A stretch of 64,000 bases of DNA, taken from Paracoccus sp. SCSIO 75233. Lineage in GTDB: Bacteria > Pseudomonadota > Alphaproteobacteria > Rhodobacterales > Rhodobacteraceae. A program made the position numbers and the translations under genes. The stretch covers positions 78,542-142,541 of the forward strand of contig NZ_CP115760.1 of the NCBI RefSeq assembly GCF_027912675.1, read 5' to 3'. The notes beneath the pieces are model-generated. The model did no database searches, had not been told where the DNA came from, and saw only the letters and a program-made list of their open reading frames with translations. This document shows positions 31,648 through 56,686 of this stretch, piece by piece. Numbering within the stretch: position 1 is the stretch's first letter; each line of letters begins with the position of its first letter.

Positions 31648-31732
31648 CTTCGTTCCTTCGTCACTACGACGAAGCCCAAATCCTCCTTAAATCACAACCT
31701 CAAATCTGTGCCATAGCCGCTGACGGGGGACA

Positions 31733-32586
31733 GTCACCACATCGCCCCCGCAATGGGTGAAAACGGTGTCCAGATGCATCGCCGCGCGCGAACTGGGCAT
31801 CTGGCAGGCGATCACCCGCGTCACGTCGCCACCCTCGAACAGCGCCTCGGCCAGTTGGCCCACCGCCTGCGGGGTCGATCGTTCGCCCATGCCGACCATG
31901 ACGACACCGTGCCCGATTGGCATGATGTCGCCGCCTTCCAGCGTGGCCGTCCCGAATTCCCGCGTCGGATCGCCGAACCAGACCCGCACTCGATCCGCGA
32001 ATGTCGGATAAAACCGGTAGACTGCTGCCATCAGCAGCGTTTCGGGCCGCCGTGCCGCGAAATGCATCGGGTTCAGGCTCACGCCGCCATAAACCCAGGC
32101 TGAATTGTCGCGGGTAAAGATGAAATTTGGCAGCGGCGGCAGCACGAAACCGTGGGGGCCAAGGTAGCTGCCGAACATGCCGGAGGGCGTGAAAGGCAGA
32201 TCGTCCACCCGGATGCCGCCGACCAGCAAACGGGCCAGTTCCGTGCCGGGCAGACCCTCCATCCAGGCACGCAAGTCGTCCCGCATCCCCACGCCGACGT
32301 CATTGCGGGTGATGCGGTGGTCGAGAACCCAGGCGCGCGCGTCGGAAATGTCCAGCGTCTCGCCCAGCAGCGCCATCGCATCCAACACCTCGACCCCTTC
32401 GCCGCGCATGACATCGGCAAAGACGGCGTGATCCTTGATCGCCTGTTTGACCCAGAACACATCGTCGAACAGCAGGTCTTCGCGGTTGTCCGGTGTCAGA
32501 CGGCGATGCGCCAGGCCGGGTGGCGATACGATCACCTGCCGCAATGTACCGGCTTCGGAATGAACGCCCAATTTTGGTTCAGACAT
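31733..32586 (-). pseudogene. arcA: arginine deiminase arcA, 3' truncated by IS3
   Basis: The first about 284 codons of ArcA (normally near 410), which hydrolyses arginine to citrulline and ammonia. Visible active-site elements include [15 protein letters not shown], the [11 protein letters not shown] loop and MHLDTVFT. The IS3 left end cuts the gene at 31733, so the C-terminal part with the nucleophilic Cys is lost; the last codons of the open frame to 31687 are IS sequence. It cannot be an active deiminase. arcB and arcC are not in the window. Confidence 0.88.
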
Positions 32587-32609
32587 CTGGAATGCCTCCT
32601 TCTTTCTAA

Positions 32610-34058
32610 TCAGAGAATGGCGGCCAGGCTGATCCCGGCCGAGATGAAGACGACGAGGATCAGCAGCAGGGGCCAGACGAAGACGACCCAGCGGTCGAAC
32701 GACACGCGCCCGATGGCCAGACCGCCGATCACAACCGCAGAGGTGGGCGTGATCAGATTCACGAGCCCGCTCGCCGATTGATAGGCCGTCACCACGAGGT
32801 CACGGCCGACCCCCGCGAAATCCCCCAACGGGGCAAAGATCGGCATCGACAGGACGGCCAGGCCGGACGACGACGGCACGAGAAAGCTCATCCCGATCTC
32901 GATCCAAAGCATCAGGTTGATGAACGCGACTTCCGGCAGGCCGCCGAGGGTATCGGCGGCACTATTCAGGATCGTGTCGGCAATCAGGCCCTGCTCCATG
33001 ATCACCACGATGCCGCGCGCCAGACCGATCACCAGCGCAACTCCCAGAAGATCCTTCGCTCCGTCGACAAAGGACGACGTCAGCTTCTTTTCGCCCATCC
33101 GTGCGACCAGCCCGACGACGATGGCCATGCCGAAGAACAGCGCGCCCATCCGAGCCATCCACCATCCCTGGCTCGAGACATCCCAAATCATTACCGCAAA
33201 GGTCGTAAAAAACAGGATCAGGACCAGCTTCTGAGTTCCGCTCAGCTTCGGCTCCTCGAACGTTGCATCCGTCTCGTTCAGAAAAAACTGCCGGTCGCTG
33301 TCGCGTTGCGCAGCGACGACGGACCGGGCCGGGTCGGCCTTAACCTTCGAGGCATAGCGCATGACGTAGGCCACGCAGATCGCGAGGCCTCCCAACAGAA
33401 GGACCAGCCGCAGCGCAATACCATCCGTGAACGGGATGCCTGCCGCGTTAGACGCGATTACCGTGGCGAAGGGGTTGATTGTCGATCCCAGCGTGCCGAT
33501 CCCGGCACCGATCAGGATGATCGCCACGCCGGTCACGGAATCGTAGCCCGCCGCGATCACCACCGGGATCAGAAGCGCGTAAAAGGCCAGCGTTTCCTCG
33601 GCCATGCCATAGGTCGTGCCGCCCAGGGCAAAGAGCGACATCAGGATCGGGATCATCCAGATCTCGCGCCCCTTCAGCCGCACCATCGCCGTCTGGATGC
33701 CGGTGTCGATGGCATTCGTGGCATTCACCACGCCCAGAAAGCCGCCCAAAAGCAGTACGAACAGCGCCACGTCGATGGCATTTGCGGCATAGCTGTCGGG
33801 ATCATAAAACCCCGCCACCGGTGCCAGCATGACGTCGATGACCCCCTGCGGATTGGGCTCGACCGTTTGATACGTACCCGGCACGGCGATCTCGCGCCCG
33901 ACCTCTTCGTTCATGGCGCGGTCATATTGGCCCGCAGGGATAATCCAGGTCAGCGCCGCGACAACGATGATCAGGCCGAACAGGATGGAATACGCGGTGG
34001 GAAACCGCGCCGCCATGCCCTTCCCGTCCGGTGTCTTGGTCGATGATGTGTCAGACAT
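32610..34058 (-). CDS. YfcC family membrane transporter (probable arginine/ornithine or C4-dicarboxylate type)
   Basis: 482 residues with about 12 transmembrane segments, an early PAGQYDR motif, [21 protein letters not shown] and a [12 protein letters not shown] hairpin, and a second conserved repeat with [19 protein letters not shown]. This matches the YfcC/DcuC-like family, some of which exchange arginine for ornithine (ArcD2-like). It lies 23 bp upstream of arcA, so arginine-ornithine exchange is the likely original role. Complete, unlike arcA. Confidence 0.8.
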
Positions 34059-34074: not shown

Positions 34075-36441
34075 TCAATGTGATTTCTGCGAGTGTCCGG
34101 CGTGAAGCGGCACCTGGCCTGCCTGCGCATCGCCCTGACCGCCGCCGCTGGCGGACCCACTCTTGCCCGCACCAATACCTTCCAGCCGCGTTCGTTTCAG
34201 CAGCAGCGCGTTGACCGCCACCAGCGCGGAGCTGCCCGACATGGCAAGTGCTGCCACGGCGGGGCTGATGATCAACGGATAAAACACCCCTGCCGCCATC
34301 GGAAAGGCGACCACGTTATAAGCCACGGCCCAGAACAGGTTCTGGTGCATCTTGCGCAAGGTGGCGCGCGACAACTCGATGGCCCCCACGACATCGTAGG
34401 GATCGCTTTTCATCAGCACGACATCGGCGCTTTCCATCGCCACGTCGGTGCCCGCACCGATGGCAAATCCGACATCGGCCTGGGTCAACGCGGGTGCGTC
34501 GTTGACACCGTCACCGACCATGCCGACCTTCTTACCCTGGGCCTGAAGCTCTTTGACCTTCTCGGCCTTTTGGCCCGGAAGAACATCTGCCAGCACAATG
34601 TCGATGCCCAGCTCGCCCGCGATCCGCCTTGCGGTACCTTCGTTGTCGCCGGTCAGCATCGCCACCTCGACGCCGCGTGCGCGCAGCTTGACCACGGTGG
34701 CCTTGGCGCTCGGACGCGGCGCATCAGCGATGGCGATCAGGCCCAGCATCCGTCCGCCCTGCGCCACATGCACAACCGTGCGGCCCTCGCCCTTCAGGCG
34801 CTCGGCCTCCGCCGTCAGGGTGCCGACGTCGATACCCTCCTCGTCCATCAGGCGCCGATTGCCGACCAGCACGGTCTTGCCTGCGACTTCGGCGCGCGCG
34901 CCGCGGCCTTCGAGGTTGAGAAACTCGGCCATCTGCGGGACGTCGAGGTCCGCCGCGCGTTCGACAATGGCGAGCGCCAGCGGGTGGTCCGAGCCGCGAT
35001 CGACGGCCGCCGCAGCCCGCAGCGCGTCATCCTCCGCGCCGCCTTCGGCGGCAACGACCTCGACCACGCGCGGTTCGCCCATGGTCAACGTGCCGGTCTT
35101 GTCGAAGACGATCACGTCAAGCTTGGTCGCGTCTTCCAGCGCACCGGCATTCTTGAACAGGATACCGTGCTGCGCCCCTAACCCTGTGCCCACCATCACC
35201 GCCATCGGCGTAGCAAGCCCAAGCGCGTCCGGGCAGGCGATGACGAAGACGGTGATCGTCAGCGTCAGCGCGAACAAAAGCGGAGAGCCGATCCACCAGA
35301 ACCAGACCGCGAAGGTTGCAAGTCCGATCACGACGGCGATCAGCACCAGCCATTGTGAGGCTTTGTCGGCCAGAAGCTGGGCGGGTGCCTTGGAGTTCTG
35401 CGCCTCCTGCACCAGCTTGACGATCTGCGCCAGCGCGGTGTCGGCCCCGACCTTGGTGGCGCGGTACCGGAAACTGCCGCTCTTGTTGATGGTGGCGCCG
35501 ATCACGGTGTCGCCGACGGCCTTGTTGACCGGCATGGATTCGCCTGTCAGCATGGATTCGTCGACCAGCGACGCGCCTTCGACAACCTCGCCATCCACCG
35601 GGATCTTGTTGCCGGGCCGGATCAGCACGATCTCGCCCTCAAGTACTTCGGAGGTAGGCACCTCAACGTCTTGCCCATCGCGGATAACGGTCGCCATCGG
35701 CGGTGCAAGATCGAGCAGTGCGCGGATTGCAGCGGACGCCCCGGCCCGCGCGCGCATCTCCAGCCAGTGACCCAACAGGATGAACACCAGCAGCACCGCC
35801 ACCGCCTCGTAGAATTGCACGCCCGGAAAGAAGAAGGTAGACCCGACGCTGAACACATAACCGGTGCCAACCGACAGCACGACCAGGACCGCCATGTTCA
35901 GGATGCCGTTGCGCAGGGCGCGCCAGGCGGCGACGAAGAACGGCCAGCTTGGCCAGATAATCGCGGCACTACCCAGGAAGAACAGCCACAGATCCAGTTC
36001 CAGCCCGAAGGGCGGCGCGGGTGGCGTGAACAGGCCACCCATCGGCGAATAAGTGAAGATCGGGATGGTGAACAGCAGCGCCACCCAGAAGCGGTTGCGC
36101 ATGTCGCGGACCATGCTGGCCATGTCCATACCACCGCCGTGGCCCATCTCGTGCGCCATCGCGTCGTGGCCAGCCGGGGCCTCCGCGCCAGACATTTGAT
36201 GGTCGGCGTGGCAGACATGGTTCGGAACCCGCTCCCCGGCGCAGTGGAATCCGCAGGCCTCAACCGTGTTGCGCAGCTCTTCCTCGCCCACTGCCGTCTC
36301 GTCGTATTGGACTGTCACGCTTTCCGATGCCGGGTTCGCTTCGGCTCTGTGCACTCCGTCGAGAGCTGACAAATGGCGTTCGACCGCGAGATGATCGAGT
36401 TCCTCGAACAGCCCGCGGACCTCAAGGGTCAATGATTTCAT
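34075..36441 (-). CDS. heavy-metal translocating P1B-type ATPase with a CPD motif
   Basis: 788 residues. Residues 1-70 form an HMA-like ferredoxin fold without the usual CxxC, followed by a His/Met-rich stretch with CHADH and [11 protein letters not shown]. Eight membrane helices, TGES in the actuator domain, DKTGTLT (phosphorylated Asp), SDHPLA (the HP motif) and [10 protein letters not shown] are intact. The membrane metal motif is [14 protein letters not shown] where copper exporters have CPC and CopB types CPH. The protein also ends in a His-containing tail. Copper or a related cation is likely, but specificity is uncertain because of the CPD site. Confidence 0.88.
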
Positions 36442-36705: not shown

Positions 36706-37611
36706 TTGACGGATTTCACGAAACCAGTCGGCAAGACGCACAAATCCTTTGCCCTCGTGTTAAGTGGTGGCGGGGCGAGAGGCCTGTCACACGCCGGTGT
36801 CCTACGCGCCCTCGTCGCAAGGGGCTATACCCCGAGCGCGATCGTAGGGGTGTCCATGGGTGCGGTCGTCGGCACCACATACGCCATGAACGACGATTGG
36901 TTCGACGCATTGGTCGCCATGGACACCAGCGGGTTTCCGGCAACCCCGGACTTTCGCTTGCCAGGTCTAACCGCTCGGATGAAAGGCCTTCGAACCGCTT
37001 TGCTTGCCGCGCGGGACATGTACTTCGGCTGGGGAGTTGGAGCGCCTACCGAGACATGGGGCCGCAGCGTCCTGTCAAGTCTGACGCAAGGTAAAAATCT
37101 TGAGAATGGTCGCATCCCGATCTTTGTCTGCGCGACGGATATGCTGACCGGGAAACGTGTGGTTTTCGGCAAGGGGAATGCCACAGATTACATCAATGCA
37201 AGCGCGGCGCTCGCCGGAATATTGCCACCCCTGGTCGATGGACCGCATGTGCTGATGGACGGGGCTTACGCAGACATAGCGCCGGTCGACGTTGCGAGGG
37301 CTACAAGTGCCGAGATCGTGATCGCCGTCGACCCAAGCCAGCGCGAAAACACCATTGGCCCGAAAAACGGGATGCAGGCGATGCTGCGATCCATAGAAGT
37401 CTGCCAGTATGAACATGCACGGTTGCGGTTCGCGCAGGCGGATCTGGTGATCCGGCCTGAATTCGGACGGTCGATCGGCACACTTGAATTCGGTCTAAAG
37501 CGCCACTGTATCGCGGCTGGGGCCGTGGCCACCCGCCGCGCTTATGGTGATATCGAGACGCTGCTTAATCCCGGGAATGCGGAGCGAATGGCCGAGCCGC
37601 TGGCAGGCTAG
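36706..37611 (+). CDS. patatin-like phospholipase family protein
   Basis: 301 residues from a TTG start preceded by GAAGG. Patatin signatures are complete: the oxyanion hole GGGARG, the Ser-Asp dyad in GVSMGAV (nucleophile Ser) and MDGAYADIAP (Asp). The family cleaves acyl esters of lipids; the bacterial RssA/YchK-type members are cytoplasmic or membrane-associated with mostly unknown substrates. No signal peptide. It is a single gene facing the nuo-like operon tail to tail. Confidence 0.85.
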   Translation: MTDFTKPVGKTHKSFALVLSGGGARGLSHAGVLRALVARGYTPSAIVGVSMGAVVGTTYAMNDDWFDALVAMDTSGFPATPDFRLPGLTARMKGLRTALLAARDMYFGWGVGAPTETWGRSVLSSLTQGKNLENGRIPIFVCATDMLTGKRVVFGKGNATDYINASAALAGILPPLVDGPHVLMDGAYADIAPVDVARATSAEIVIAVDPSQRENTIGPKNGMQAMLRSIEVCQYEHARLRFAQADLVIRPEFGRSIGTLEFGLKRHCIAAGAVATRRAYGDIETLLNPGNAERMAEPLAG

Positions 37612-37660: not shown

Positions 37661-39019
37661 TCAGCCGGGAAACACTCCCGCAAATAGCCCCATCAGCGCC
37701 GTGACCAGCGCGGTCGCCCAGAGAACGACCAACAGCGGCGGCGCCATATCAGTCCGGCCCGCATCGCCCTCGCGCGCCTGATACATCGACACCACTATGC
37801 GCAGATAGACCGCCAGCGCCAGCACACTGTTGAGGATGCCGATCACCGCCAGCCACAGATAGCCGGTCTCGATCGCGGCGCCGAACAGCAGCACCTTGCC
37901 GACAAAGCCGAAGAGCGGCGGAATGCCGGTGAGCGACAGCAGGAACACGACCATCGCCACGCCGACCACCGGTCGCGCGCGGCCGAACCCCTTGAAATCG
38001 TCCAGATTGCGGCCCGCGATCATTATGACTGCAAAGGCTCCCAGGTTCATCGCCACATAGGCCGCACCAAACACGATTACCGAAGGCAGGGCCAGCGCGC
38101 TGGTACCGAGCGCCACGATCCCCATCATGAAATAGCCCGCCTGCGCAACCGAAGAATAGGCCAGCAGCCGCACGGCATTGGTCTGCACCAGAGCCGCCAG
38201 ATAGCCGAGTGTCATCGTCACTGCCGCGATCAGCGCGACGACGAACGGCCAGCCGGTGGCTACCGGCAGATCGCGCAGCACCTGCGCAAAGGCGAAGATC
38301 GCGGCAACCTTGGTGATGACCGACAGGAACGCCGCGACCGAGACCGGCGCGCCGTCATAGGCGTCCGGTGCCCAGAACTGGAACGGCACCAGCGCCGCCT
38401 TGTAGCCCAGCCCGATCAGCACCGCGACCAGCCCCGCCAGCGCGATCAGCGGCTTGCCATCGAGCGCCCCGAGCTCGGAAAAGAGCGTCGACCCGGCCCC
38501 ACCGAACCAGAAGGTCAGCCCGTAGATCATCACCGATCCGGTGACGGCGCCGAACACCAGATATTTCATCGCCGCCTCGGTCGCGGCATCGTTGCGCGGC
38601 CAGGCCACCATCGCGAAGGAGCCGAGGCCCGTCAGGACCACGCCCAGGACCAGCAGCATCATGTCGCCACCGCCCGCCAGCATCAGCGCCCCCAGCGTCA
38701 CCAGGCACAGCAGCACATAAACGCTGCCCTCGCGGTCCTTCCCGGCGATCTCGGCCCGCGTCATCAAAAGCGCCAGCGCGGTGCCCGGCAGCAAGATCAA
38801 CTTGGCCCAGCCGGACAGCAGATCGACGCGGTAGGTGCCGCCAAAGACGCTGGTGTCGGCCTCCAGCAGCGGAAGGGTCAGCGCGGTGGACAGACCCAGC
38901 CCGATCAGCCCGAACGCCAACGCCAGACGGGGCGCGCGCAGCATCTCGGCCACCAGCATCAGCACGACAGTGGAGGCCAGCATCAGCTCGGGAAACAGAA
39001 AGGACAGGTCGCGCGCCAT
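37661..39019 (-). CDS. nuoN: complex I-like antiporter subunit NuoN
   Basis: 452 residues, about 14 transmembrane helices. The ATG at 39019 overlaps the nuoM stop (TAATG). Ion-path lysines are visible in the first half (MKYLVFGAVTGSVMIYGLTF) and in GYKAALVPFQFWAPDAYDGAP and SVITKVAAIFAF, the residues that form the NuoN half-channels in complex I. Last gene of the eight-gene nuo-like operon. Confidence 0.92.
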   Translation of the reverse strand: MARDLSFLFPELMLASTVVLMLVAEMLRAPRLALAFGLIGLGLSTALTLPLLEADTSVFGGTYRVDLLSGWAKLILLPGTALALLMTRAEIAGKDREGSVYVLLCLVTLGALMLAGGGDMMLLVLGVVLTGLGSFAMVAWPRNDAATEAAMKYLVFGAVTGSVMIYGLTFWFGGAGSTLFSELGALDGKPLIALAGLVAVLIGLGYKAALVPFQFWAPDAYDGAPVSVAAFLSVITKVAAIFAFAQVLRDLPVATGWPFVVALIAAVTMTLGYLAALVQTNAVRLLAYSSVAQAGYFMMGIVALGTSALALPSVIVFGAAYVAMNLGAFAVIMIAGRNLDDFKGFGRARPVVGVAMVVFLLSLTGIPPLFGFVGKVLLFGAAIETGYLWLAVIGILNSVLALAVYLRIVVSMYQAREGDAGRTDMAPPLLVVLWATALVTALMGLFAGVFPG

Positions 39020-40479
39020 TAGAATTGCAGTGCCCGCATCGTCGCGTCGATCATGCCCAGCAACCAGGACGGCGCGACCCCGATAAGGATGATGAGGATG
39101 AGCAGCGGCACGACGGCCTGCATCTCGCCGCGGTCCAGATCGGGCATCGCCGCCCATTTCTCGTTCGGCTCGCCCAGAAATACCGCCGCGATCGCGCGCA
39201 GGTAAAGCCCCGCCGTCACCACAATGGCGATAATCGCCACGATGGCCCAGGGCTGAGCATTCAGCGTGGCCAGGAAGATCTGAAATTCAGCCGGGAAATG
39301 CGCCAACCCCGGCAGCCCGAGCGAGGCAAAGGCCGACAGCACGAAGGCCCAGCCCAGCCATGGCACCTGCCCCAGCAGCCCGCCGAACGCGGTCATCTCG
39401 CGTTCGTGGGCGCGCGACTGCAACATGCCGACGAGAAAGAACAACGCCCCGGTGACGACGCCGTGGCTGACCATCTGCAAGGTCGCACCATTGAGCGCGA
39501 CCGCCCGCAAGTCAGGGTCCAGCGTCAGCGCCGCCACCGCGACGCCGATCACCACATAGCCCATGTGGTTCACCGACGTATAGGCGATCATCTTCTTCAG
39601 ATCTGACTGCGCCAGCGCCACGAAGGCACCGTAAAGGGCGCTGAATACGCCAAAGGCCAGCACCACCTGACCGGCCTGCGCAAAGGCGTCGGGCGTCATC
39701 TGTAAGGCGAAACGCACAAGGCCGTATGTGCCGAATTTCAGCATCACCCCGGCGAGGATCACGCTGCCCACGGTCGGGGCCTGCACGTGGGCCGCGGGCA
39801 GCCAAGTATGCACTGGAAAGGACGGGATCTTGACCGCGAAGGTGAACAGCATCGCGATCAGCGCCAGCATCGCCGCCAGCCCAGTCAGTGGCGGCGCCTC
39901 GATCCACAGCCGCATGTCAAAACTTCCCGTGGCCAGATACAGCCCGATGATCGCCAGCAACAGCGGCAGCGAGCCTAGCAGCGTGTAGATGAAGAACATC
40001 AGCCCGGCGCGCTGGCGTTCTTCATAGCCCCAGCCGACGATCATGAAGTACATGCCGACCAGCGACACTTCAAAGAAGACGTAGAACAGGAGCGCGTCCA
40101 GCGCCGCGAAAGTGCCGATCGACGCGGTCTCCAGCATCAGCATCAGCGCGACAAAGACCGCCGGGCGGTCGGTGATCCGCGCCGCATAGATTGCCGACAG
40201 GAAAAACAGCAGCGAGGTCAGCAGGATCAGCGGCAGGCTTAGCCCGTCGATGCCCAGCCGGTAGGCCGCGCCGATGGCCGGGATCCATGCGATCTCCTCG
40301 ACCTGCGCGAAACCGCCTGGCAGCGTGCCCCGCGCCCAGATCGCCAGCGTCACCACGAAGGTCAGCCCGGTGGTGGCGATGGAAACGCCATGGGCGATGC
40401 GCGCCGACTTGTTTGGCAGGGCCATCAGCAGCACGCCACCAAGAAGCGGCAAAAAGACGGAGATCGAGAGAAGGGGCAT
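39019..40479 (-). CDS. nuoM: complex I-like antiporter subunit NuoM
   Basis: 486 residues, about 14 transmembrane helices. Conserved ion-path residues are present: Glu in LFYVFFEVSLVGMYF, Lys in FAVKIPSFPVHTWLP, and the later Lys in SDLKKMIAYTSVNHMGY. The sequence AHVQAPTVGSVILAGVMLK replaces the common AHTEAPTAGSVILAGVLLK, so the core is well kept. Located between nuoL (17 bp gap) and nuoN. Confidence 0.94.
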   Translation of the reverse strand: MPLLSISVFLPLLGGVLLMALPNKSARIAHGVSIATTGLTFVVTLAIWARGTLPGGFAQVEEIAWIPAIGAAYRLGIDGLSLPLILLTSLLFFLSAIYAARITDRPAVFVALMLMLETASIGTFAALDALLFYVFFEVSLVGMYFMIVGWGYEERQRAGLMFFIYTLLGSLPLLLAIIGLYLATGSFDMRLWIEAPPLTGLAAMLALIAMLFTFAVKIPSFPVHTWLPAAHVQAPTVGSVILAGVMLKFGTYGLVRFALQMTPDAFAQAGQVVLAFGVFSALYGAFVALAQSDLKKMIAYTSVNHMGYVVIGVAVAALTLDPDLRAVALNGATLQMVSHGVVTGALFFLVGMLQSRAHEREMTAFGGLLGQVPWLGWAFVLSAFASLGLPGLAHFPAEFQIFLATLNAQPWAIVAIIAIVVTAGLYLRAIAAVFLGEPNEKWAAMPDLDRGEMQAVVPLLILIILIGVAPSWLLGMIDATMRALQF

Positions 40480-40496
40480 GGCGGGGTCGTCTTTCT

Positions 40497-42392
40497 TCAG
40501 GAGGACATCGGTAAGATCAGCAGCACCGCCGCGATGACGGCAATGCCCATGACGGTCAGGGCGAGTTCGCGGTGGATGAGCCCGCTTTGCAGCAGGCGCA
40601 GGCGGCGGCCGGCGGCAATTGTCCGGTCGACAAGGCCGAAGATCAGCCCGTCGATGCCTTTTGTGTCGGTGGTCTCGGCGCTGTCACCCAGGCGCAGGTT
40701 CATCCGGCCCACCTGAAGGGTCGCGGCATAAAGCCGGTTGTCTGAACGCTCGGCACTGGATGCGGTGCCAAGGCTCAAGATCCGCACAAGGCCAAGTTGC
40801 GACGCCAGCAGACGCCGTTCGAAACCTTCACAGGCGGCGGCAAAAGCCAGCGACGGGCGCAGCACCAGCCCGTCCATACCGCCCGCGACGGCAAAGCCGC
40901 GCTGCGCCATCGGCAGAACCGGCCCCATCAGGCGGGCAGGTTGGATGAACCAGCCCAGCACCAGGCCGCTCAGCGCCGCCATAAGCCCGAGGATCATCGC
41001 GGTTCCTTCCGGCGGCAGTTCGGCCTCAAGCAGATGTTCCAGCGGCGTGAAGGCGAACCCAAGCCCCGCCGCCAGCGCCGTCAGCACCGCCATGCCCGCA
41101 CCCATCCAGCCCATCCCCTTGCCCAGAACGGGCTGGGCCTCGCCCTGCCACAGCACCCGCAGCGCCCGCGCCATATAGGCCCCGGTCAGCACCGTGCCTG
41201 CCAGCGCCAGCGGCGCGAGCCATACGACCCCGGGGGCCGCCAGCGCGGCGGCAAGGATCGCGTCCTTGGAAAAGAACCCCGCCAGCGGCGGGATCCCCGC
41301 CAGCGCCAAAGCAGCAATGCCGAAAGCGGCCAGCACCAGCGGTCGTGCCCGGCCCGCGCCCGCGACCGCATCCATGTCGGTGCTGTCGCGATCATGCTGG
41401 AACACACCCGCCCCCAGAAAAAGCGTGCTCTTTATCGCCGCGTGGGCGATAAGGTGCAGCAGCGCCGCCACCGGCACCCCCGCGCCAATGGCCAGCAGCA
41501 TCAGCCCGTACTGGCTGGAGGTCGAGGCGGCCAGCAGCCGCTTCAGGTCCCGCTCGGCCAGCGCGATCAGGCCGGCAACGACGGCGGTGACGCCGCCCAC
41601 CAGCCCGACCGCAATCAGCGCGCCTGCGGGCAGCATCGGGGTCACGCGGATCAGCAAGATCGCCCCCGCCGCCACCAGAGTCGCGGAATGCAGCAAAGCG
41701 GAGACCGGCGTCGGGCCGGCCATGGCGCGCTGCAACCAGTCCTGCAACGGCACCTGCGCCGACTTGCCCATCGCGCCGATCAGCAACAGCAACCCGGCGA
41801 CCAGTGCGGGCGTGCCGGTGATATCCAACGCGGCCGAGATTTCCGCGGTGCCGGCCCAGCCGATCAGCACGAAAATCCCCAGATAAAGCCCCAGATCGGC
41901 GCTGCGGGTATACAGAAACGCCCGCATCGCGGCACCGGGCACGCCGTCACGCCCATGCCAGAACCCGATCAGCAGATAGCTGGAAAAACCGATCAGTTCC
42001 CACGCCGCCAGCACGGTGATCCAGTCGCCCGCCAGAACCAGCGCCTGCATCGCGGCGACAAACAGCAGCAGGATCCCGAAAAAGCGCGGCTTCTCGGGGT
42101 CGCTGCGCATGTAACCGACAGCGTAGATCAGCACACAGGCCGCCACCGTCGCCACCATGGCCGAAAACACCGCCGTCAGCGGCGTCGCGACCAACCGCAG
42201 CGGCATCTGCGGCAGCCCCGGCAGGACCAGTTGCATGGTGCCACCGGAAACGATCCCCGCCAGCAACGCCATCGCCGCGACAAACCCAAGGCCGACGCCC
42301 GCCAGTGCAATCGCTTCGGGTGCGCGGCGCAGCACAAGCGCCGCGAGACCCGCCAGCAGCGGCGCAAGGATAATGAGCGCCAGCATCGTCAT
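40497..42392 (-). CDS. nuoL: complex I-like antiporter subunit NuoL
   Basis: 631 residues with the Mrp-antiporter core. Ion-path residues are kept: Glu in LAAWELIGFSSYLLIGFW, Lys in GKSAQVPLQDWLQRAMAGP and Lys in RDLKRLLAASTSSQYGLM. The C-terminal extension corresponds to the lateral helix and last membrane helix of NuoL, so it is NuoL and not MrpA. It overlaps nuoK by 4 bp. Confidence 0.94.
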   Translation of the reverse strand: MTMLALIILAPLLAGLAALVLRRAPEAIALAGVGLGFVAAMALLAGIVSGGTMQLVLPGLPQMPLRLVATPLTAVFSAMVATVAACVLIYAVGYMRSDPEKPRFFGILLLFVAAMQALVLAGDWITVLAAWELIGFSSYLLIGFWHGRDGVPGAAMRAFLYTRSADLGLYLGIFVLIGWAGTAEISAALDITGTPALVAGLLLLIGAMGKSAQVPLQDWLQRAMAGPTPVSALLHSATLVAAGAILLIRVTPMLPAGALIAVGLVGGVTAVVAGLIALAERDLKRLLAASTSSQYGLMLLAIGAGVPVAALLHLIAHAAIKSTLFLGAGVFQHDRDSTDMDAVAGAGRARPLVLAAFGIAALALAGIPPLAGFFSKDAILAAALAAPGVVWLAPLALAGTVLTGAYMARALRVLWQGEAQPVLGKGMGWMGAGMAVLTALAAGLGFAFTPLEHLLEAELPPEGTAMILGLMAALSGLVLGWFIQPARLMGPVLPMAQRGFAVAGGMDGLVLRPSLAFAAACEGFERRLLASQLGLVRILSLGTASSAERSDNRLYAATLQVGRMNLRLGDSAETTDTKGIDGLIFGLVDRTIAAGRRLRLLQSGLIHRELALTVMGIAVIAAVLLILPMSS

Positions 42393-42700
42393 CCCTTCAA
42401 CTCGCGCGCTTCTTCCATCTCAACCGACCCGCGCACCCGGAACCGCGCGATGGCGATGGCAAAGCCGACCGCCATTTCGACCGCCATCACCGCCATCACG
42501 ATCAGCACGAACATCTGACCGGCCGGTTCATCGGGATGCAGATAGCGCCAGAAGGCCACCAGATTGACCAGTGCTGCGGCCAAAATCAGCTCGACCCCCA
42601 TGATGATCATCACCAGGTTCGTCTGGCTCAGCGCGCCGTAAAGACCGATACCAAACAGCCCCGCGCCGACGCTGAGCGCGATCATCATCTCCACAATCAT
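42389..42700 (-). CDS. nuoK: complex I-like subunit NuoK
   Basis: 103 residues, three transmembrane helices. The two membrane Glu residues essential in complex I are present in IIMGVELILAAALVNLVAF and MAVMAVEMAVGFAIAIA. Overlapping stop and start codons with nuoJ and nuoL. The C-terminus is a short charged tail. Confidence 0.93.
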   Translation of the reverse strand: MIVEMMIALSVGAGLFGIGLYGALSQTNLVMIIMGVELILAAALVNLVAFWRYLHPDEPAGQMFVLIVMAVMAVEMAVGFAIAIARFRVRGSVEMEEARELKG

Positions 42701-43212
42701 TTGCTCTGCTCCGCGTTGGGGACGATGGCCACCATCGTGGCCGCAACCATGGCCGTCAGGATGGTCAGCCCTGCCGACTGGAAGATGAACATTGACCGGC
42801 CCAGCAATTCGCGGCCCAGATCGGCGGCCTGTTCATGCGCACCCGGCACAGACAGGGCGACCGGACCCCAATCGGGCAGCCAGACCAGCAGCAGCGCCGC
42901 CAGCAGCCCAATGCCCCCGGCCCAGAGCGACAGGCGTTTCTGGTGGGTCATGTCCATTTTGCCCATGCCGCCGGGATCCATCATGAACATCACCATGAAA
43001 ATCGCCATCACGCTCATTTCCGTGGCCATCATCATGATCTGCAACACGCCCAGAAACTCGGCCTGCATGACCAGAAACATCGCCCCTATCGCGGTTTGCG
43101 AAAACAGCAGCGCCAGCGCCGAGCGCACCATCGAATGGGTGCGGAAAACCACGACGCCGAACCACACCGCCGCGCCGCCGAAGAACGCCAAGAAGATCAT
43201 CTGAACCGTCAT
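42697..43212 (-). CDS. nuoJ: complex I-like subunit NuoJ
   Basis: 171 residues from the ATG at 43212, which overlaps the nuoH stop. Five predicted membrane helices. The third-helix motif that normally reads about VYAGAIMVLFLFV is changed here to MMATEMSVMAIFMVMFMM, so the Tyr at the mobile pi-bulge helix, important for coupling in complex I, is missing and the segment is Met-rich. The rest aligns in layout with NuoJ. Confidence 0.88.
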   Translation of the reverse strand: MTVQMIFLAFFGGAAVWFGVVVFRTHSMVRSALALLFSQTAIGAMFLVMQAEFLGVLQIMMMATEMSVMAIFMVMFMMDPGGMGKMDMTHQKRLSLWAGGIGLLAALLLVWLPDWGPVALSVPGAHEQAADLGRELLGRSMFIFQSAGLTILTAMVAATMVAIVPNAEQSK

Positions 43213-44108
43213 ATCGGCACCACCAGCGCGATCACGCCCACGACAAAGATATTGGCCAGCGCCAGCGAGATCCCCAGCTTCCAGCTCAGCGCCAGGTAAC
43301 GCGCTTCGCGGATGCGCGGCATATAGCGCCCGACGCTCAGCATGGCCGCGGCCACGGCCAGGATCTTGATCGCGCTCCAGGCCCACGCGGGCAGCCACGG
43401 GCCCAGCCAGCCGCCCAGATAGAAGGTCACGGTCGCCCCCGCCAGCGCCAGGATAATGACCATCCGCGCCAGCCGCAGCACTGCCAGCCGCACGCCGGTA
43501 TATTCCGCCTCGACCCCGCCGGCCAATTCGCCGGTCGCATCGGGCAGGTCCAGCGGCGGCAGCCAGGCCAGCCCCATCGCCGCCACGACGAACAGGACAA
43601 ACCCCATCGGCTGGTACAGCACGTTCCAGAGCTGCGCCTGCGAGGCGACGATCTCAACCGTCGAGAGCGACTCCGCCCGCATGGCGACGGCGGTGATCGG
43701 CATCACGATCAGCATGGCATAGGCAATGAACTGGCCCAGGAACCGCCAGCCCGCGATCATGGCGTAGGCCCCGTTCGGCCCCCAGCCCGCCATGATCAGC
43801 GCCACCAGCACATAGGCCAGCGCAGCGTTCAAAAACAGCGCTCCGGTCGCCAGGTCGGTGATGATAAGCCCCGGCGCCAGCGGGATCACTGCCACCGCCA
43901 TCAGCCCCGCCACCAAAAGCAGCACCGGCCCAAGCTCAAAGAACAACCGGTCAGATTTGCGCGCCAGCAGCGATTCCCGCCCCATAAGCGCCAAGGCGGC
44001 CCAGGCCGGACCGGTCAGGCTCAGGTGCCCATGCACGGCCCATCGTTCGATGACGGCCAGCGCATAGGCCCCGGCGGCGAGCGACAGGAGAACGACAAGA
44101 ATGCTCAT
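43209..44108 (-). CDS. nuoH: complex I-like subunit NuoH, divergent
   Basis: 299 residues, eight or so membrane helices, shorter than usual (about 325-345). The loop DLPDATGELAGGVEAEYTG corresponds to the DLPEAExELVAGYxxEYSG quinone-cavity loop and keeps some Glu, but the first acidic pair is altered. The SYE Glu and the LAEY Glu of normal NuoH are replaced (AYA and LRLARM). The GRxxxRxGPNR loop is not recognisable. It overlaps both neighbours (ATGA). The connecting subunit is thus retained but strongly changed. Confidence 0.85.
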   Translation of the reverse strand: MSILVVLLSLAAGAYALAVIERWAVHGHLSLTGPAWAALALMGRESLLARKSDRLFFELGPVLLLVAGLMAVAVIPLAPGLIITDLATGALFLNAALAYVLVALIMAGWGPNGAYAMIAGWRFLGQFIAYAMLIVMPITAVAMRAESLSTVEIVASQAQLWNVLYQPMGFVLFVVAAMGLAWLPPLDLPDATGELAGGVEAEYTGVRLAVLRLARMVIILALAGATVTFYLGGWLGPWLPAWAWSAIKILAVAAAMLSVGRYMPRIREARYLALSWKLGISLALANIFVVGVIALVVPI

Positions 44109-46171
44109 CCACGCACCTCCCAGGGCGACAGGTCGAGCGAGGCGACGGCGCTCAGGGCATCGCCCAGTTCCTGCTGCGCCGTCACCGTTTCGACAAGGGC
44201 GATGTTCACGTCTGTCGGCGTGTCGAGATCGGCCTCGACCACCTTGCCATTGGCCAGCTTCACGCGCAGCGACGCCGTGCCGCGCGGTGTTTCGATGCGA
44301 GCCTCGCCCTCGCCCGACACCCTGTCCACATCCGGCACCTGCGGCACAGCAATCATCCCGGCGGCCGCGATCAGGTCGAGGCTTTGGGCGATCTCTTCGC
44401 AGCGCAGCCGCAGCCGCGCCAGCGCATCGCCGCCGTTGCGGACGCGCATTTCGAACCCGAGATCCTTCAGCGTTGGATCACCCGTTCGGGCATCCGATCC
44501 GCCACCTCGCGCCCGGTCCACCGGGCCGCTGGCCGGGGCGTCATTGCCGATGCGCGCGATGCGTCTAAGCCGCATCCGCATCAGCGGGGCCGCCTGCACC
44601 CGGCGCGACAGCCGCCGGATCGCCCCAGCCTGCGTGGCAATCCCGGCAACGTCGGCACCTTGAACGGTCAGTTGCAACGCCCCAGCGCGCGCGGCGAGCC
44701 ACAAAAAACCCGACTGAAGGCCGAACTCGGCCAGCCAGTTCAGGTGGCTGGCGATCCGCTCGCGTTCCACGGCGGCGGCGCGGCCACGGCGCGCGTCATG
44801 GTCGGGCTCGACGCCGGCGGCCACCTCAATCGCAGCGCAAGCCAGCGCGCGATAGGACACGCTGCTGAGCGGCATCATGGTGGCCAGACGCTCGACGAAA
44901 TCGGCCACCCTCATCTGCGGCCCATCCATCAAATCCGTCGCGCCGACAAGGCTCGTGGCGTCGCTGGCCGCAACGGTATCGCCATCCAGCGTCAACGTCA
45001 GCCGCAGCCCAGCCGGCAGGCCGGGAAAGAACGGCCCGAACGGCACCTTGATCCAGTCCATCTGTAACCCGTCGCTGCTGCGCGGCTGGTCCTTGGTCAT
45101 CTCGACCATCGACATGAAATGCGGCTCGATCCCGTCGATAGTGGCCTTGGAGTGGCCGCCATGTCCGGCATGCCCATCGTGGCCGGAATGGTCCTGCTGT
45201 TTGCCATGACCGCCGTGACCGCCATGCCCGTGACCGTGACCGGGACCGTGGCTTTCCACCTCCTCCGCCTTCACCAGGTTCATGCCGCATTTAGGGCACT
45301 TGCCCGGTGCATCGCTGATCACCTCGGGGTGCATCGGGCAACTATATGCCCCCGACCCGCCCGCCTTGTCGTCGTGACCGGCATGATCGCCATGCGCGGA
45401 GGGCGCGTGGCTTGCATGCCCATGCCCATGCCCATGCCCGTGACCGTGGCTTTCCACCTCCTCCGCCTTCGCCAGGTTCATGCCGCATTTGGGGCACTTG
45501 CCCGGTGCGTCGCTGATCACCTCGGGGTGCATCGGGCAAGTGTATGCCCCCGACCCGCCCGCGTCGTGAGCGTGGCCCGCATGTGCGTGATCGGCGGGGT
45601 TTGGCCTGTCCTCCCGGGGCATGTCGTGGCCACCGTGCCCACCATGTCCATCGGACGCTGTTTCGCGCGGCACCAGCGTCATGCCACATTTGGGGCAGTC
45701 TCCGGGGGCGTCGCGGACGATTTCGGGGTGCATCGGGCAAGTGTATTCCACGCGCACCTCAAGAGCGGGGGCGTTAAACTCCCCGCTGTCAGCGCGAAAC
45801 GCGCCCGCGGCGATCACGCGGCGCAGATCGGCCAGCCCGGCCCGTGTCAGCGGGGCCGACACGTCCGCATCGGGCAACGGGGCGATGTCGCCTGCGCCCA
45901 GTGCCAGGATCGCGCGGGGGCGCGGCATCTGCGCGTAGGTGACGGCGGCGGCATCGCGCAGACCGTCCGGAATCGGGCCGACGACGATGAGAACGTCGGC
46001 ATGGCGCGGGGTGCCTACAACACGCAGGTGCGCATTGGCAAGGTCGATCCCCATCGACCGCGCGACAGACGGGCCGGGCAGCACAAAGGCCGTCAGATCG
46101 CGCGCCATGGCCGCCGCGACCGCCCGCCTGATCCCGTACATCGCGCCCTCTCGCGCCCCGGCTATGGTCAT
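44105..46171 (-). CDS. fusion: NuoB-like / three heavy-metal-binding domains / NuoD-like
   Basis: 688 residues from the ATG at 46171, which overlaps the nuoA stop. Residues about 8-125 resemble NuoB (the region around NuoB SPRQADLMVVAG reads TPRHADVLIVVG) but lack all four cluster cysteines. Three modules follow at about 143-165, 210-234 and 276-299, each YTCPMHPE then CPKCGM (YSCPMHPE in the third), joined by long His/Gly-rich linkers. Residues about 350-688 resemble NuoD (VPFGPFFPGLPAGLRLTLTL, an ERERIASHLNWLAEFG stretch, RLRLRCEEIAQSLDLI) but lack the quinone-site HPSAHG His. It probably docks on NuoH as a redox-inactive, metal-binding peripheral arm. The function is unknown; no such fusion is known to me. 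Confidence 0.85.
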   Translation of the reverse strand: MTIAGAREGAMYGIRRAVAAAMARDLTAFVLPGPSVARSMGIDLANAHLRVVGTPRHADVLIVVGPIPDGLRDAAAVTYAQMPRPRAILALGAGDIAPLPDADVSAPLTRAGLADLRRVIAAGAFRADSGEFNAPALEVRVEYTCPMHPEIVRDAPGDCPKCGMTLVPRETASDGHGGHGGHDMPREDRPNPADHAHAGHAHDAGGSGAYTCPMHPEVISDAPGKCPKCGMNLAKAEEVESHGHGHGHGHGHASHAPSAHGDHAGHDDKAGGSGAYSCPMHPEVISDAPGKCPKCGMNLVKAEEVESHGPGHGHGHGGHGGHGKQQDHSGHDGHAGHGGHSKATIDGIEPHFMSMVEMTKDQPRSSDGLQMDWIKVPFGPFFPGLPAGLRLTLTLDGDTVAASDATSLVGATDLMDGPQMRVADFVERLATMMPLSSVSYRALACAAIEVAAGVEPDHDARRGRAAAVERERIASHLNWLAEFGLQSGFLWLAARAGALQLTVQGADVAGIATQAGAIRRLSRRVQAAPLMRMRLRRIARIGNDAPASGPVDRARGGGSDARTGDPTLKDLGFEMRVRNGGDALARLRLRCEEIAQSLDLIAAAGMIAVPQVPDVDRVSGEGEARIETPRGTASLRVKLANGKVVEADLDTPTDVNIALVETVTAQQELGDALSAVASLDLSPWEVRG
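45243..45640. repeat. 198-bp in-frame tandem duplication in the fusion gene
   Basis: The stretch beginning GTGGCTTTCCACCTCC occurs at 45248 and again at 45446, 198 bp (66 codons) apart, with nearly identical sequence through the CPKCGM/CPMHPE module and into the linker. It creates metal-binding modules 2 and 3. The first module (around 45660-45760) is more divergent. Confidence 0.85.
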
Positions 46172-46530
46172 TGCCGCCTCAACGCGCCCTGGCTCCAGCC
46201 ATAGAGCAGGCCCAGGAACAGGATTGAGAGGAAAACGCCCATGTCGAGCAATGCGATCAGCCCTTCTTCGCGGTAGACGACCGCCCACGGATACATGAAC
46301 GCCATCTCCATGTCGAAGGCCAGAAACAGCAGCGCATAACCGGCATAGCGCGCATGATAGCGGACCCAGACCGGATCGCGCGACAAGGTACCGGCCGTGG
46401 CGGGCACGTCCTTGCCCGGTTCCGAGCGCGTGCGCCCGATGGCCCGGGCGAGCCCGTAAAGGCTTAGCACGAAACCGAACACACCGACACTCAGCCCGAA
46501 AAGGATCGCGTATTGGGAAAGCTCGCTCAT
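46168..46530 (-). CDS. nuoA: complex I-like subunit NuoA, first gene of the operon
   Basis: 120 residues with three transmembrane helices, the RYHARYAGYALLFLAFDMEMAF stretch (normally RFxxRFYLxALLFLIFDVEVVF) and YPWAVVYREEG. Asp/Glu of the conserved loop are kept. A strong ribosome site AAGGAGG lies nine bases before the ATG. As in standard nuo operons it comes first, but here it is followed directly by the B/metal/D fusion. Confidence 0.92.
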   Translation of the reverse strand: MSELSQYAILFGLSVGVFGFVLSLYGLARAIGRTRSEPGKDVPATAGTLSRDPVWVRYHARYAGYALLFLAFDMEMAFMYPWAVVYREEGLIALLDMGVFLSILFLGLLYGWSQGALRRQ

Positions 46531-46724: not shown

Positions 46725-46786
46725 GTGGCCGGTGATTTAGCGTTGCATGATTGACGATCCGAACAAACAGGACAGAGGGAAGTCAA

Positions 46787-47473
46787 ATGTGCCTGTCCGC
46801 TCAAGTCAGCTTTGCCGCCAGTGTTTTTCTTGTTGGCGGCGGCACGGCCATTTCAATTGTGGCTTGGCGGCGCAACAAACGCTATCTCCCGCTTGCCCTG
46901 ATGCCGCTTTTCGCCGGACTGCAGCAGTTTACCGAGGGTTTTGTCTGGGTCGGCATGAACGGAAACGATCCCCTGACGGTTTTGTGGGGGGCAATGGGGT
47001 TCATCTTTTTCACCTGGTTCATGTGGCCGATCTGGGTCCCCTTCTCGGTCTACGTGCTTGAACCGGACGACAGCCCCCGAAAGCGGTTGTTCCGCCTCAT
47101 GGCGTTGATCGGGCTGGCTTTCGGACTGCTGCTTTACATACCGCACGGGCTAAACAGTGACATGGTGGTGGTCGAGGTCAACAATCAGTCTCTGGCCTAT
47201 GAAAAATCCATGTGGCTGGATTTCATGATGCCACGCTGGCTGACCAATACAATCTATGTGACCCTTATCACCCTCCCGCCAGCGCTGTCGCATTACAAAC
47301 ACATGCGCCATTTCGCCCTGACGCTGGGGGCGGTGATCGTGGTCGATATCGCCTTCCTGCAATTCGCATATATTTCGTTTTTCTGCCTGCTGGCGGGTCT
47401 CGCAACGCTGCATCTGGTGTACATCATTTTGACCAACAAATGCGCCCGTGAATGCCCTGAATTGTTCGCCTGA
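46787..47473 (+). CDS. DUF6629-like multi-spanning membrane protein
   Basis: 228 residues starting MCLSAQVSFAASVFLVGGG, the start supported by GAGGGA eight bases upstream. About seven transmembrane helices; the central EGFVW and FFTWFMWPIWVPFSVYVLE segments and a Cys-containing end (NKCARECPELFA) stand out. The N-terminus resembles DUF6629 proteins (MCFSATASF). Function unknown. It is divergent from the nuo-like operon. Confidence 0.65.
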   Translation: MCLSAQVSFAASVFLVGGGTAISIVAWRRNKRYLPLALMPLFAGLQQFTEGFVWVGMNGNDPLTVLWGAMGFIFFTWFMWPIWVPFSVYVLEPDDSPRKRLFRLMALIGLAFGLLLYIPHGLNSDMVVVEVNNQSLAYEKSMWLDFMMPRWLTNTIYVTLITLPPALSHYKHMRHFALTLGAVIVVDIAFLQFAYISFFCLLAGLATLHLVYIILTNKCARECPELFA

Positions 47474-55560: not shown

Positions 55561-55791
55561 TCACGGTTTGCTCAGCAGCTTTGCAAGTGGTGAAGCGGCC
55601 GGCAAGCCCCATCCCCTCCTAGCTTTCCGGTTGAACGCCATAAGCCGCTGCGCGTTCTGCGTCACCAGAACAGATGCGCCTGTTTCGGTGAGGATCGCGA
55701 TACAAGGGCCCGTCATGCCCGCCACGGTTGTGATCAGGAGCAGACCCTTCAGACCGGGACCGATGACCACGTTCTGGCGGATGTTCGCCAT
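55561..55791 (-). pseudogene. ZntA/CadA-type ATPase, C-terminal fragment
   Basis: A frame ending at 55561 reads [20 protein letters not shown] and [19 protein letters not shown], the last two membrane helices typical of Zn/Cd P1B ATPases (NIxQNxxxxxGxK, DxGxxxxVxxNxLRL). The rest of the ATPase is missing; the fragment joins a PhnD-like fragment at about 55790. Confidence 0.65.
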
Positions 55792-56163
55792 CCGCCACCG
55801 CGCGCACCACGTTGCGATGGCCAAACGTGAAAATGGATCGACTGAAGAAGCCCTCGACCTGTTCCCCCATCCGGCGCAGATCGGTCGCGGTCACAAGATA
55901 GCCAGAGTTCGAATCCGGGTCGGAAAATGCATGCGTGCCCCCTTGCAGGTCGGACAGCGCTTCCGCTCCATCTTCAGCCCCGACAATGAGGTAAGACTGG
56001 TATCGCGGGCCACCGCGCCACACAGGCGCAGCGACAAGATCCAGCAAATCGGCGTGCTGGAGATAGGGATAGCCGCAAAGCCAAGCCGCATCGACACTAC
56101 GTTCCAGCAGAAGGCCAGTGATTTCCTGATAGGTGCGACGCTGAACCAGTTCGATCTCACGCC
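55788..56163 (-). pseudogene. PhnD-like substrate-binding protein, internal/C-terminal fragment
   Basis: The frame contains [49 protein letters not shown] and [15 protein letters not shown], typical of phosphate/phosphite/phosphonate ABC transporter binding proteins found near ars genes. It is joined in frame to the arsH fragment upstream and out of frame to the ATPase tail downstream. Not a functional gene by itself. Confidence 0.7.
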
Positions 56164-56686
56164 CCATCCGCATCCAACGCCCGAGCAGCCGCATCTGGTT
56201 CACGGCGTTGAAGCTCTGCGATCCGCCCGAGACCTGCATTACTGCCAGCGTCTTTCCCTGCGTCGGGCGCACGGCGCCCTCGGACAGCGGGATCCAGTCG
56301 ATCTGCGTCTTCATCAACCCGGTCATCGCGCCGTGACGCTCAGGGCTTGACCAGACCATGCCCTCGCTCCATGTGACCAGATCGCGGAGCTCGCGGACTT
56401 TCGGGTGGCTGGCATCGACCCCGTCATCAACCAGCGGGAGGCCGGATGGATGGAAAAACCGCACTTCCGCCCCCAGGCGCGTAAGGATGCGCCCGGCCTC
56501 TTCCGCGGACAGCCGGCTAAATGAGCGGACCCGCAGCGAGCCATTGAGGATCAGAATACGCGGTGGATGCGTTCGGACGATCGTAGGCCGCAGTCGTTCG
56601 CGGTCGATTGAAGCGAAGTGCTGCTCATCAAGCTGAGGGGTGGTCAGGTTCGTCAGGTCGTCAGGCAATTCGTTTTCCCCGATCAT
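56164..56686 (-). pseudogene. arsH: arsH 5' fragment (organoarsenical oxidase/FMN reductase)
   Basis: From the ATG at 56686 (inside the end of arsC) the ArsH sequence runs normally: [20 protein letters not shown] (FMN phosphate loop), [40 protein letters not shown]. It then breaks at about 56164, where the next expected segment (ITIPNQSS...) is replaced by PhnD-like sequence. The open frame of the chimera continues to 55619. About 50 C-terminal residues of ArsH are lost. Confidence 0.8.

Follow-up and report, generated by a model that had tools for sequence, protein, structure and literature searches.

A complex I relative with a methionine-rich coupling region as a possible proton-driven exporter of Cu(I)

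The window analysed here, a stretch of 64,000 nucleotides from Paracoccus sp. SCSIO 75233 (contig NZ_CP115760.1), carries an operon of eight genes on its minus strand (46530 down to 37661, mostly with 4-base overlaps between neighbours) in the order nuoA, a fusion of a NuoB-like part, three metal-binding HMBD modules and a NuoD-like part, nuoH, J, K, L, M and N. The encoded complex genuinely belongs to the complex I superfamily, is widespread and has a coupling region rich in methionine. With a probability of roughly 0.5, it is interpreted as a redox-free exporter of Cu(I), possibly also of Ag(I), that is driven by the proton motive force and built from most of a complex I: in this new exporter class, with Cu(I)/Ag(I) as substrates and protons as the driving force, the redox module would have become a metal-docking head, the quinone cavity a metal entry and the E-channel a methionine ladder, and plasmids would have contributed to the spread of the genes across phyla. 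The mechanism by which quinone-site events are coupled to distant proton movement in complex I is a long-standing question; the operon appears to represent a natural complex I in which the redox event was swapped for a metal-ion event and most of the pump was kept, and coupling via NuoJ transmembrane helix 3 (TMH3) and NuoK could be studied in it with a transported ion replacing quinone chemistry.

Complex I origin and distribution

The complex I origin postulated in the initial annotation is borne out by the profile matches, the gene order and the folds at both ends of the fusion protein (N-terminal NuoB fold, C-terminal NuoD fold). Each membrane subunit (NuoA, H, J, K, L, M, N) paired with its own complex I counterpart among the Pfam and NCBIfam profiles; NuoM cleared the NCBIfam cut-off for complex I NuoM, and most other subunits scored below their respective NCBIfam cut-offs. 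Between nuoA and nuoN of the window, neither the list of open reading frames (ORFs) nor Pfam revealed nuoC, E, F, G or I. Another contig of the same genome encodes a second NuoB (full-length profile match) with a canonical NuoJ 12 kb further along; in consequence, a standard complex I is very probably located there.

A scan of one genome per species for relatives of the NuoD-like domain yielded 101 sequences, of which 80 were kept; with five plasmid loci added they form the set of 85 loci used below, and since a subunit row required 85% coverage of the window protein, 67-84 rows were available per subunit. Left out of the set was an operon remnant on pXAUT01 of Xanthobacter autotrophicus Py2 (L003:14696-15387), which consists of nuoA and a truncated NuoB-like piece near an annotated bilirubin oxidase gene. 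The relatives belong to Alphaproteobacteria, Gammaproteobacteria, Actinomycetota (mostly Rubrobacter) and Chloroflexi; in the plasmid collection, the operon was plasmid-borne in Paracoccus, Sulfitobacter, Roseovarius, Nitratireductor and Rubrobacter. An assembly error, considered in the initial annotation as a possible refutation, and a chance fusion are rejected because the same operon is present on finished plasmids and in many genomes. The survey of gene order proposed there revealed all nine parts in the same order on one strand at 58 of the 85 loci, whereas 23 loci were cut by a contig end but ordered; the remaining four deviate, either by a disturbed order in which NuoK was not found (L017) or by a sequence that ends early, the missing subunits probably being matched by paralogous ORFs (L030, L046, L051).

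The occurrence is sporadic: with the window's genome counted each time, the operon was found in 10 of 295 genomes of its own family, 5 of 398 from the phylum and 1 of 385 from the class (the latter search with a loose threshold and judged by score). NuoD-like parts of Seohaeicola and Paracoccus are 99% identical and one copy resides on a conjugative plasmid, suggesting that transfer was recent. Pelagivirga sediminicola and an Aurantimonas metagenome-assembled genome each harbour two divergent copies (L012 and L052; L021 and L059). In a tree of concatenated NuoH, J and K (133 tips, 559 columns) the 77 family tips formed one clade with a support of 0.94 and a stem of 1.93; the family was again recovered as one clade with the methionine columns masked (support 0.92). 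The donor lineage of complex I is not identified by this tree.

Loss of the redox machinery in the peripheral arm

The degenerate redox part noted in the initial annotation was found throughout the family. At the N2 cluster positions of the NuoB-like domain, cysteine occurs at none of the four in 67 of 67 aligned rows, and the first 132 residues contain at most three cysteines anywhere. In the NuoD-like domain, His224 and the aligned Tyr273, which we take to be the quinone-site ligands, are substituted by Pro in 81 and 80 of 84 rows, respectively. Because the N2 cysteines and the NuoD quinone ligands are lost, the peripheral redox machinery is gone and the complex is, as judged from sequence, redox-dead. 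The best complex I-type matches of the fusion among PDB sequences were MbhJ and MbhL.

The single HMBD-containing fusion, in contrast, does not hold as the defining feature that it had been taken for. In 65 complete fusions, the HMBD copy number ranges from 0 to 10 (0 in 3, 1 in 10, 2 in 18, 3 in 21, 4 in 5, 5 in 5, 7 in 2 and 10 in 1), and at six loci (L006, L031, L045, L064, L076, L079) the B-like and D-like parts are present as separate ORFs, some of which may reflect sequence gaps. A database protein, P0043, contains 11 copies of the HMBD motif. The three HMBD-free fusions retain a short linker with His and Met. The motif FMSMV/FMSMI was detected in 83 of 86 NuoD-like ORFs, the others being two with FMSMA and one out-of-frame ORF. 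In the PDB, the HMBD stretch found a match in a chain of a copper-translocating ATPase (E 2e-7); the match of the fusion HMBD to a CusB model is weak (18.5 bits).

A copper-redox pump, in which bound copper replaces the Fe-S cluster and quinone and in which copper oxidation and reduction drive proton pumping, would be in line with the complex I origin and with the presence, at five loci (L031, L032, L040, L062, L069; PDB comparison for one of them), of an SQR-like flavoprotein gene close to the operon, possibly a partner or a chance neighbour. It is nevertheless considered highly improbable: the operon has no electron entry subunit, and NuoH Glu157 is lost in addition to the N2 cysteines and the quinone-site His and Tyr.

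Family-specific methionines of NuoJ, K, A and H

Methionines were regarded as family-specific if present in at least 95% of the family and in at most 10% of canonical sequences. NuoJ possesses twelve such sites (28, 45, 60, 61, 62, 66, 69, 73, 78, 86, 88, 141), eleven of them invariant in 79 NuoJ sequences and Met45 present in 77; Met77 aligned inconsistently between two alignments and was therefore excluded from the count. Among 120 listed of 1145 database homologues of NuoJ, 13 Met sites and His90 were found in 120 of 120, Met45 in 118, and Met73 and Met155 in 119. Per 100 residues, the number of family-specific methionines amounts to 7.0 in NuoJ, 3.9 in NuoK, 2.5 in NuoA, 1.0 in NuoH, 0.9 in NuoN, 0.6 in NuoM and 0.0 in NuoL; the density thus drops roughly with distance from the E-channel. 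Compared with NuoL, M and N, NuoJ shows an excess of Met relative to the remaining hydrophobic columns that are family-specific (Fisher p 6e-6). A Met richness of the whole operon was rejected: NuoL, M, N and H are no richer than their canonical counterparts (for NuoM and NuoN, one of the comparisons used only E. coli), and their family-specific Met columns are few.

As the most important control, canonical NuoJ was obtained from 30 of the 32 operon-bearing genomes that were searched. In these same-genome sequences, Met28, 60, 61, 62, 66, 73, 88, 141 and His90 were all absent (0/30), Met was found at position 45, 69 or 86 in one or two of the 30, and position 78 was mostly a gap. Besides the methionines, Glu65 is present in 79 of 79 family rows, where 61 of 61 canonical rows have Ala, and the pi-bulge Gly is replaced by Thr in 77 and by Ser in two family rows. 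The substitution of E. coli NuoJ Glu55 by Gln was not counted as a loss, since the canonical residue is Leu in 20 of 21 rows.

Met62, 66, 69, 73 and 77 of NuoJ share one helix face. Positive charges are located in loops 1-2 and 3-4 and at the C-terminus of NuoJ and are missing in loop 2-3 (loop 4-5 has some and is net negative); this pattern suggests that Met28, Met86, Met88 and His90 lie on the cytoplasmic side. In E. coli, the stretch from NuoA Asp79 to NuoJ Glu55/NuoK Glu36 is packed with hydrophobic residues (PMC8357420); the helices bearing the equivalents of these three residues also hold many of the family methionines. The array is conserved in sequence and represents a candidate ladder through the membrane. 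It was not part of the initial annotation and is the strongest clue, in that it would suggest a route for metal within the membrane arm, beyond gating or sensing at the periphery.

Ion-path residues of the membrane arm

The initial annotation had stated that NuoL, M, N and K retain their key Lys and Glu residues, which is correct for NuoL, M and K and fails for NuoN at a glutamate of its transmembrane helix 5 (see below). NuoL E144, K229, K342 and K399 are kept in 71 of 71 rows, NuoM E144, K234, K265 and E407 in 69 of 69 (the lesser residues H159 and K173 of NuoM differ in the family), and NuoN K158, K217, K247 and K395 in 68 of 68. In E. coli numbering, Glu36 of NuoK is invariant, and of 80 rows 77 have Glu at position 72 and three have Asp; NuoA D79/E81 are kept in 70 of 70 relatives. 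The first helix of NuoH is conserved as well, with Glu21 (E. coli Glu36) in 81 of 81 rows; according to a pairwise alignment, the loop behind this helix is about 10 residues shorter.

Proposed mechanism

From these features we infer the substrate, the transport, its direction and its coupling. Cu(I) would be captured in the cytoplasm by the HMBDs and by the linker rich in His and Met that carries the FMSM motif, and be handed on to the former quinone cavity; from there, it would pass the NuoJ loop (Met86, Met88, His90), reach the bilayer centre along the methionines of TMH3 and exit via NuoJ/NuoK. Proton entry via NuoL, M and N would drive Cu(I) outward, coupling being accomplished by TMH3 movements and electrostatics as in complex I; candidates for the coupling acids are NuoJ Glu65 and NuoK Glu36/Glu72. 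The complex would effectively operate as an Mrp-like antiporter with a soft-metal path in place of the Na+ path.

This mechanism combines three precedents: In Mrp, a Na+ path through the NuoJ and NuoK homologues has been proposed, and the E-channel coincides with its exit (section on the cation path in PMC7419157); in the proton-driven antiporter CusA, Cu(I) is proposed to step along a methionine ladder (passage on CusA in PMC7558416); and in mammalian complex I, rotation of TMH3 of NuoJ/ND6 connects the quinone cavity with the pumps or disconnects them and gates the water wire of the E-channel (passage on ND6 in PMC7613608). In the E. coli complex I structure, NuoJ TMH3 is found in a single conformation (PMC8357420).

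The metal-gated or metal-linked ion translocator proposed in the initial annotation agrees with copper export as far as "driving copper movement" is concerned, whereas gating alone is retained only as a rival. As a metal-gated proton channel or sensor, the complex would open or close the proton flow through NuoL, M and N upon binding of metal to HMBDs and methionines and thereby tune the membrane potential or the internal pH under metal stress, no metal crossing the membrane. The HMBDs on the peripheral arm and the kept proton residues would suffice for this function, and the ND6 rotation described in the above passage of PMC7613608 offers a gate. However, a single site is enough for a gate, compared with twelve family-specific methionines in NuoJ, which extend from a loop to the membrane interior and are continued in K, A and H, and HMBDs are missing in 3 of the 65 complete fusions; a mere gate is thus considered unlikely.

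If the export reading is true, bacteria would have a third principle for exporting copper, in addition to P-type ATPases and RND pumps; the E-channel could serve as an ion path, as proposed for Mrp; and plasmid genes of this kind annotated as NADH-quinone oxidoreductase subunits would not be respiratory. The initial annotation's view that such a complex is undescribed agrees with a targeted search of the open-licence literature, which revealed no description among the matches listed (titles and abstract starts).

Genomic neighbourhood and weighing of the export reading

The copper-related surroundings pointed out in the initial annotation are present in the window and in part of the relatives. 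In the window, the operon is flanked by a P1B ATPase and by a multicopper oxidase with a DUF305 protein and cytochrome c. Genes for CopA, CsoR, CopZ, multicopper oxidase or CopB were found in the flanks of 25 of 85 family loci versus 0 of 20 canonical nuo loci (p 0.002), and copper genes at 9 of 11 loci of Actinomycetota/Chloroflexi. At six actinomycetotal loci, copA-csoR-copZ are located in this order upstream on the operon's strand; the distance from the copZ end to the first operon ORF is at most about 210 bases in L005, L048, L054 and L073 and about 2.3 to 2.5 kb in L037 and L061. The ATPases of these loci contain the signatures CPC, YN(x)4P and MxxSS (in L054, only CPC was readable). The L005 CsoR possesses Cys40, His65 and Cys69, and the Cu(I) site type of CsoR is composed of two Cys and one His (passage on CsoR in PMC7558416); its best match was the copper sensor RicR with 95.9 bits, below the cut-off of 175.

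The same path might be used inward: a copper importer would supply multicopper oxidases or other cuproenzymes, two multicopper oxidase probes each match 10 of 85 loci, and secondary transporters can run in either direction. The linked CopA, CsoR and CopZ, however, stand for copper export and its control (corresponding passage of PMC7558416) and the HMBDs reside on the predicted cytoplasmic arm, so that import is regarded as improbable.

Several observations weigh against copper export. The 85 loci of the above comparison are not independent (several are near-identical Rhodobacterales copies), and their flank lengths differ. At 29 mostly gammaproteobacterial loci, 97 neighbour ORFs (of 127 selected, out of 190 within 6.5 kb) matched 107 Pfam families, the first 25 of which included two multicopper oxidases and neither a copper ATPase nor a copper chaperone; copper probes matched only L076 and L079 among these loci. 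The copper neighbourhood is thus restricted to some lineages. Five such loci instead have an SQR-like flavoprotein gene in the vicinity, and three of the 65 complete fusions lack HMBDs. Within the membrane arm, the TM5 glutamate of NuoN (Glu133) is replaced by Val or Leu in 68 of 68 relatives and is Glu in 20 of 20 canonical rows; together with the loss of NuoH Glu157 this indicates that the complex I pump was not retained unchanged. Moreover, the nine TMH3 methionines taken together lack a one-sided helix face (vector 0.16), three-dimensional positions are derived via alignment to E. coli, and the outward direction is deduced solely from the side on which the HMBDs are predicted to lie and from the association with CsoR/CopA/CopZ.

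Some of these points would also suit another role, with the methionines serving another soft metal, sulfur chemistry or oxidant protection, and with copper genes as hitch-hikers on plasmids: the operon is found on plasmids amid unrelated cargo, and the examined gammaproteobacterial neighbourhoods are not copper-related. Yet the upstream copA-csoR-copZ on the same strand recurs at six actinomycetotal loci and the HMBD stretch matches the copper-translocating ATPase chain, which makes such a role rather unlikely.

Features of the window and further neighbours

The coordinates of the operon parts and of two adjacent genes are compiled in Table 1.

Table 1. Positions of the operon features and adjacent genes in the window.
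Feature	Position	Strand	Basis and remarks
nuoA homologue, 120 aa	46168..46530	-	PF00507 E 3e-23; Asp/Glu pair (E. coli D79/E81) kept; family-specific Met74, Met76, Met79; His59
NuoB-like / 3x HMBD / NuoD-like fusion, 688 aa	44105..46171	-	AlphaFold model, mean pLDDT 79.2
NuoB-like domain, without the four N2 cluster cysteines	45770..46171	-	
HMBD 1 (CPMHPE...CPKCGM)	45680..45739	-	PF19335; motif coordinates
HMBD 2	45479..45538	-	PF19335; motif coordinates
HMBD 3	45281..45340	-	PF19335; motif coordinates
FMSM motif, between His-rich linker and NuoD-like domain	45107..45118	-	
NuoD-like domain; quinone-site His and Tyr positions Pro in most relatives	44105..45058	-	
nuoH homologue, 299 aa	43209..44108	-	PF00146 E 3e-50; family-specific Met132, Met136, Met256
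nuoJ homologue, 171 aa, bears the methionine array	42697..43212	-	PF00499
NuoJ TMH3 segment Met60-Met78 MMMATEMSVMAIFMVMFMM; new Glu65, Thr64 at pi-bulge Gly position	42979..43035	-	
NuoJ loop Met86, Met88, His90	42943..42957	-	79/79 family rows
nuoK homologue	42389..42700	-	Pfam; family-specific Met31, Met69, Met72, Met76
nuoL homologue, proton-path residues kept	40497..42392	-	Pfam, alignment
nuoM homologue, proton-path residues kept	39019..40479	-	TIGR01972 470 bits, cut-off 263.8
nuoN homologue, TM5 Glu133 lost	37661..39019	-	Pfam, alignment
P1B-type ATPase neighbour, CPD for CPC	34075..36441	-	TIGR01511 602 bits; YN(x)4P and MxxSS present
DUF6629 gene, divergent from nuoA	46751..47473	+	PF20334

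Upstream of nuoA, a scan of the window revealed neither a sigma-70 promoter nor a terminator, and inspection of the relatives' stretches by eye yielded nothing either. As a consequence of CPD replacing the usual CPC metal motif, with the motifs of TM7/TM8 (YN(x)4P and MxxSS) retained, the substrate of the window's P1B ATPase is uncertain; the same form is encoded at seven other loci, all alphaproteobacterial (L004, L006, L009, L011, L015, L022, L084), the L004 neighbour being near-identical to that of the window. Beside this ATPase gene, an arginine deiminase and a DcuC-type carrier (PF03606) are encoded at 31687-34058; in Sulfitobacter dubius (L006), arginine deiminase and a YfcC family protein also adjoin the ATPase. 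A patatin-like phospholipase gene (36706-37611) is convergent to nuoN, as in related loci.

Relatives of DUF6629, whose gene product is a membrane protein, were found near the operon at 13 of 85 loci by clustering and at 19 of 85 by tblastn, several alphaproteobacterial copies included. Another membrane protein family (376-471 residues) is encoded beside 12 loci, mostly of Gammaproteobacteria (e.g. L027:11601-12785); its 394-residue representative had no Pfam or NCBIfam match. At 55619-56740 of the window, a single ORF combines NADPH-dependent FMN reductase and phosphonate-binding-protein-like domains, possibly a fusion or a frame artefact.

Comparison with known systems

The exporter CusA (HME-RND) resembles the proposed system by analogy of mechanism only, in that protons drive its export of Cu(I)/Ag(I) and a methionine ladder has been proposed for it (passage on CusA in PMC7558416). 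Its fold and subunits are unrelated to those of the operon, and membership was rejected since no RND Pfam domain was found in the eight operon proteins.

Group 4 [NiFe] hydrogenases, Mbh and Ehr complexes share the NuoB/NuoD-like module and an antiporter-like membrane arm. The operon differs from them by the absence of the NiFe CxxC and N2 cysteines and by a complex I-style A-H-J-K-L-M-N arm. With CxxC, the ligand motif of the group 4 [NiFe] hydrogenases, in 0 of 84 NuoD-like rows, the operon cannot be assigned to that group. Ehr complexes, which presumably combine a NuoB/NuoD-like module without NiFe ligands with Fe-S cluster binding, were rejected as well, given the lack of N2 cysteines in the NuoB-like domain of the operon.

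The Mrp (CPA3) Na+/H+ antiporter likewise comprises NuoL/M/N-, NuoK- and NuoJ-like parts and is redox-free, and its exchange of cations for protons would be analogous to the function proposed here. The cation path has been proposed to lie in the NuoJ and NuoK homologues, and the methionines of the operon surround the region in which acids and His are named in the cation-path section of PMC7419157. In contrast to Mrp, the operon has NuoA, NuoH and NuoB/NuoD homologues as well as three antiporter-like subunits and lacks the Mrp small subunits; membership was rejected, as the operon proteins match Nuo families with NuoL and NuoJ separate, and MrpB, E, F, G or a fused MrpA are absent.

Respiratory complex I (NDH-1, NuoA-N) differs from the operon in its possession of nuoC, E, F, G and I, the N2 cysteines, the quinone His/Tyr, NuoH Glu157 and NuoN Glu133, whereas the methionine array and, usually, HMBDs are additions of the operon. 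Membership in respiratory complex I was therefore rejected in spite of the membrane arm: N2 cysteines, quinone His/Tyr and an NADH/electron input module within the operon (NuoE, F, G, I) are lacking. Both systems have in common the order A-B-D-H-J-K-L-M-N, the folds and families of these subunits, the lysines of NuoL/M/N and the acids of NuoK and NuoA.

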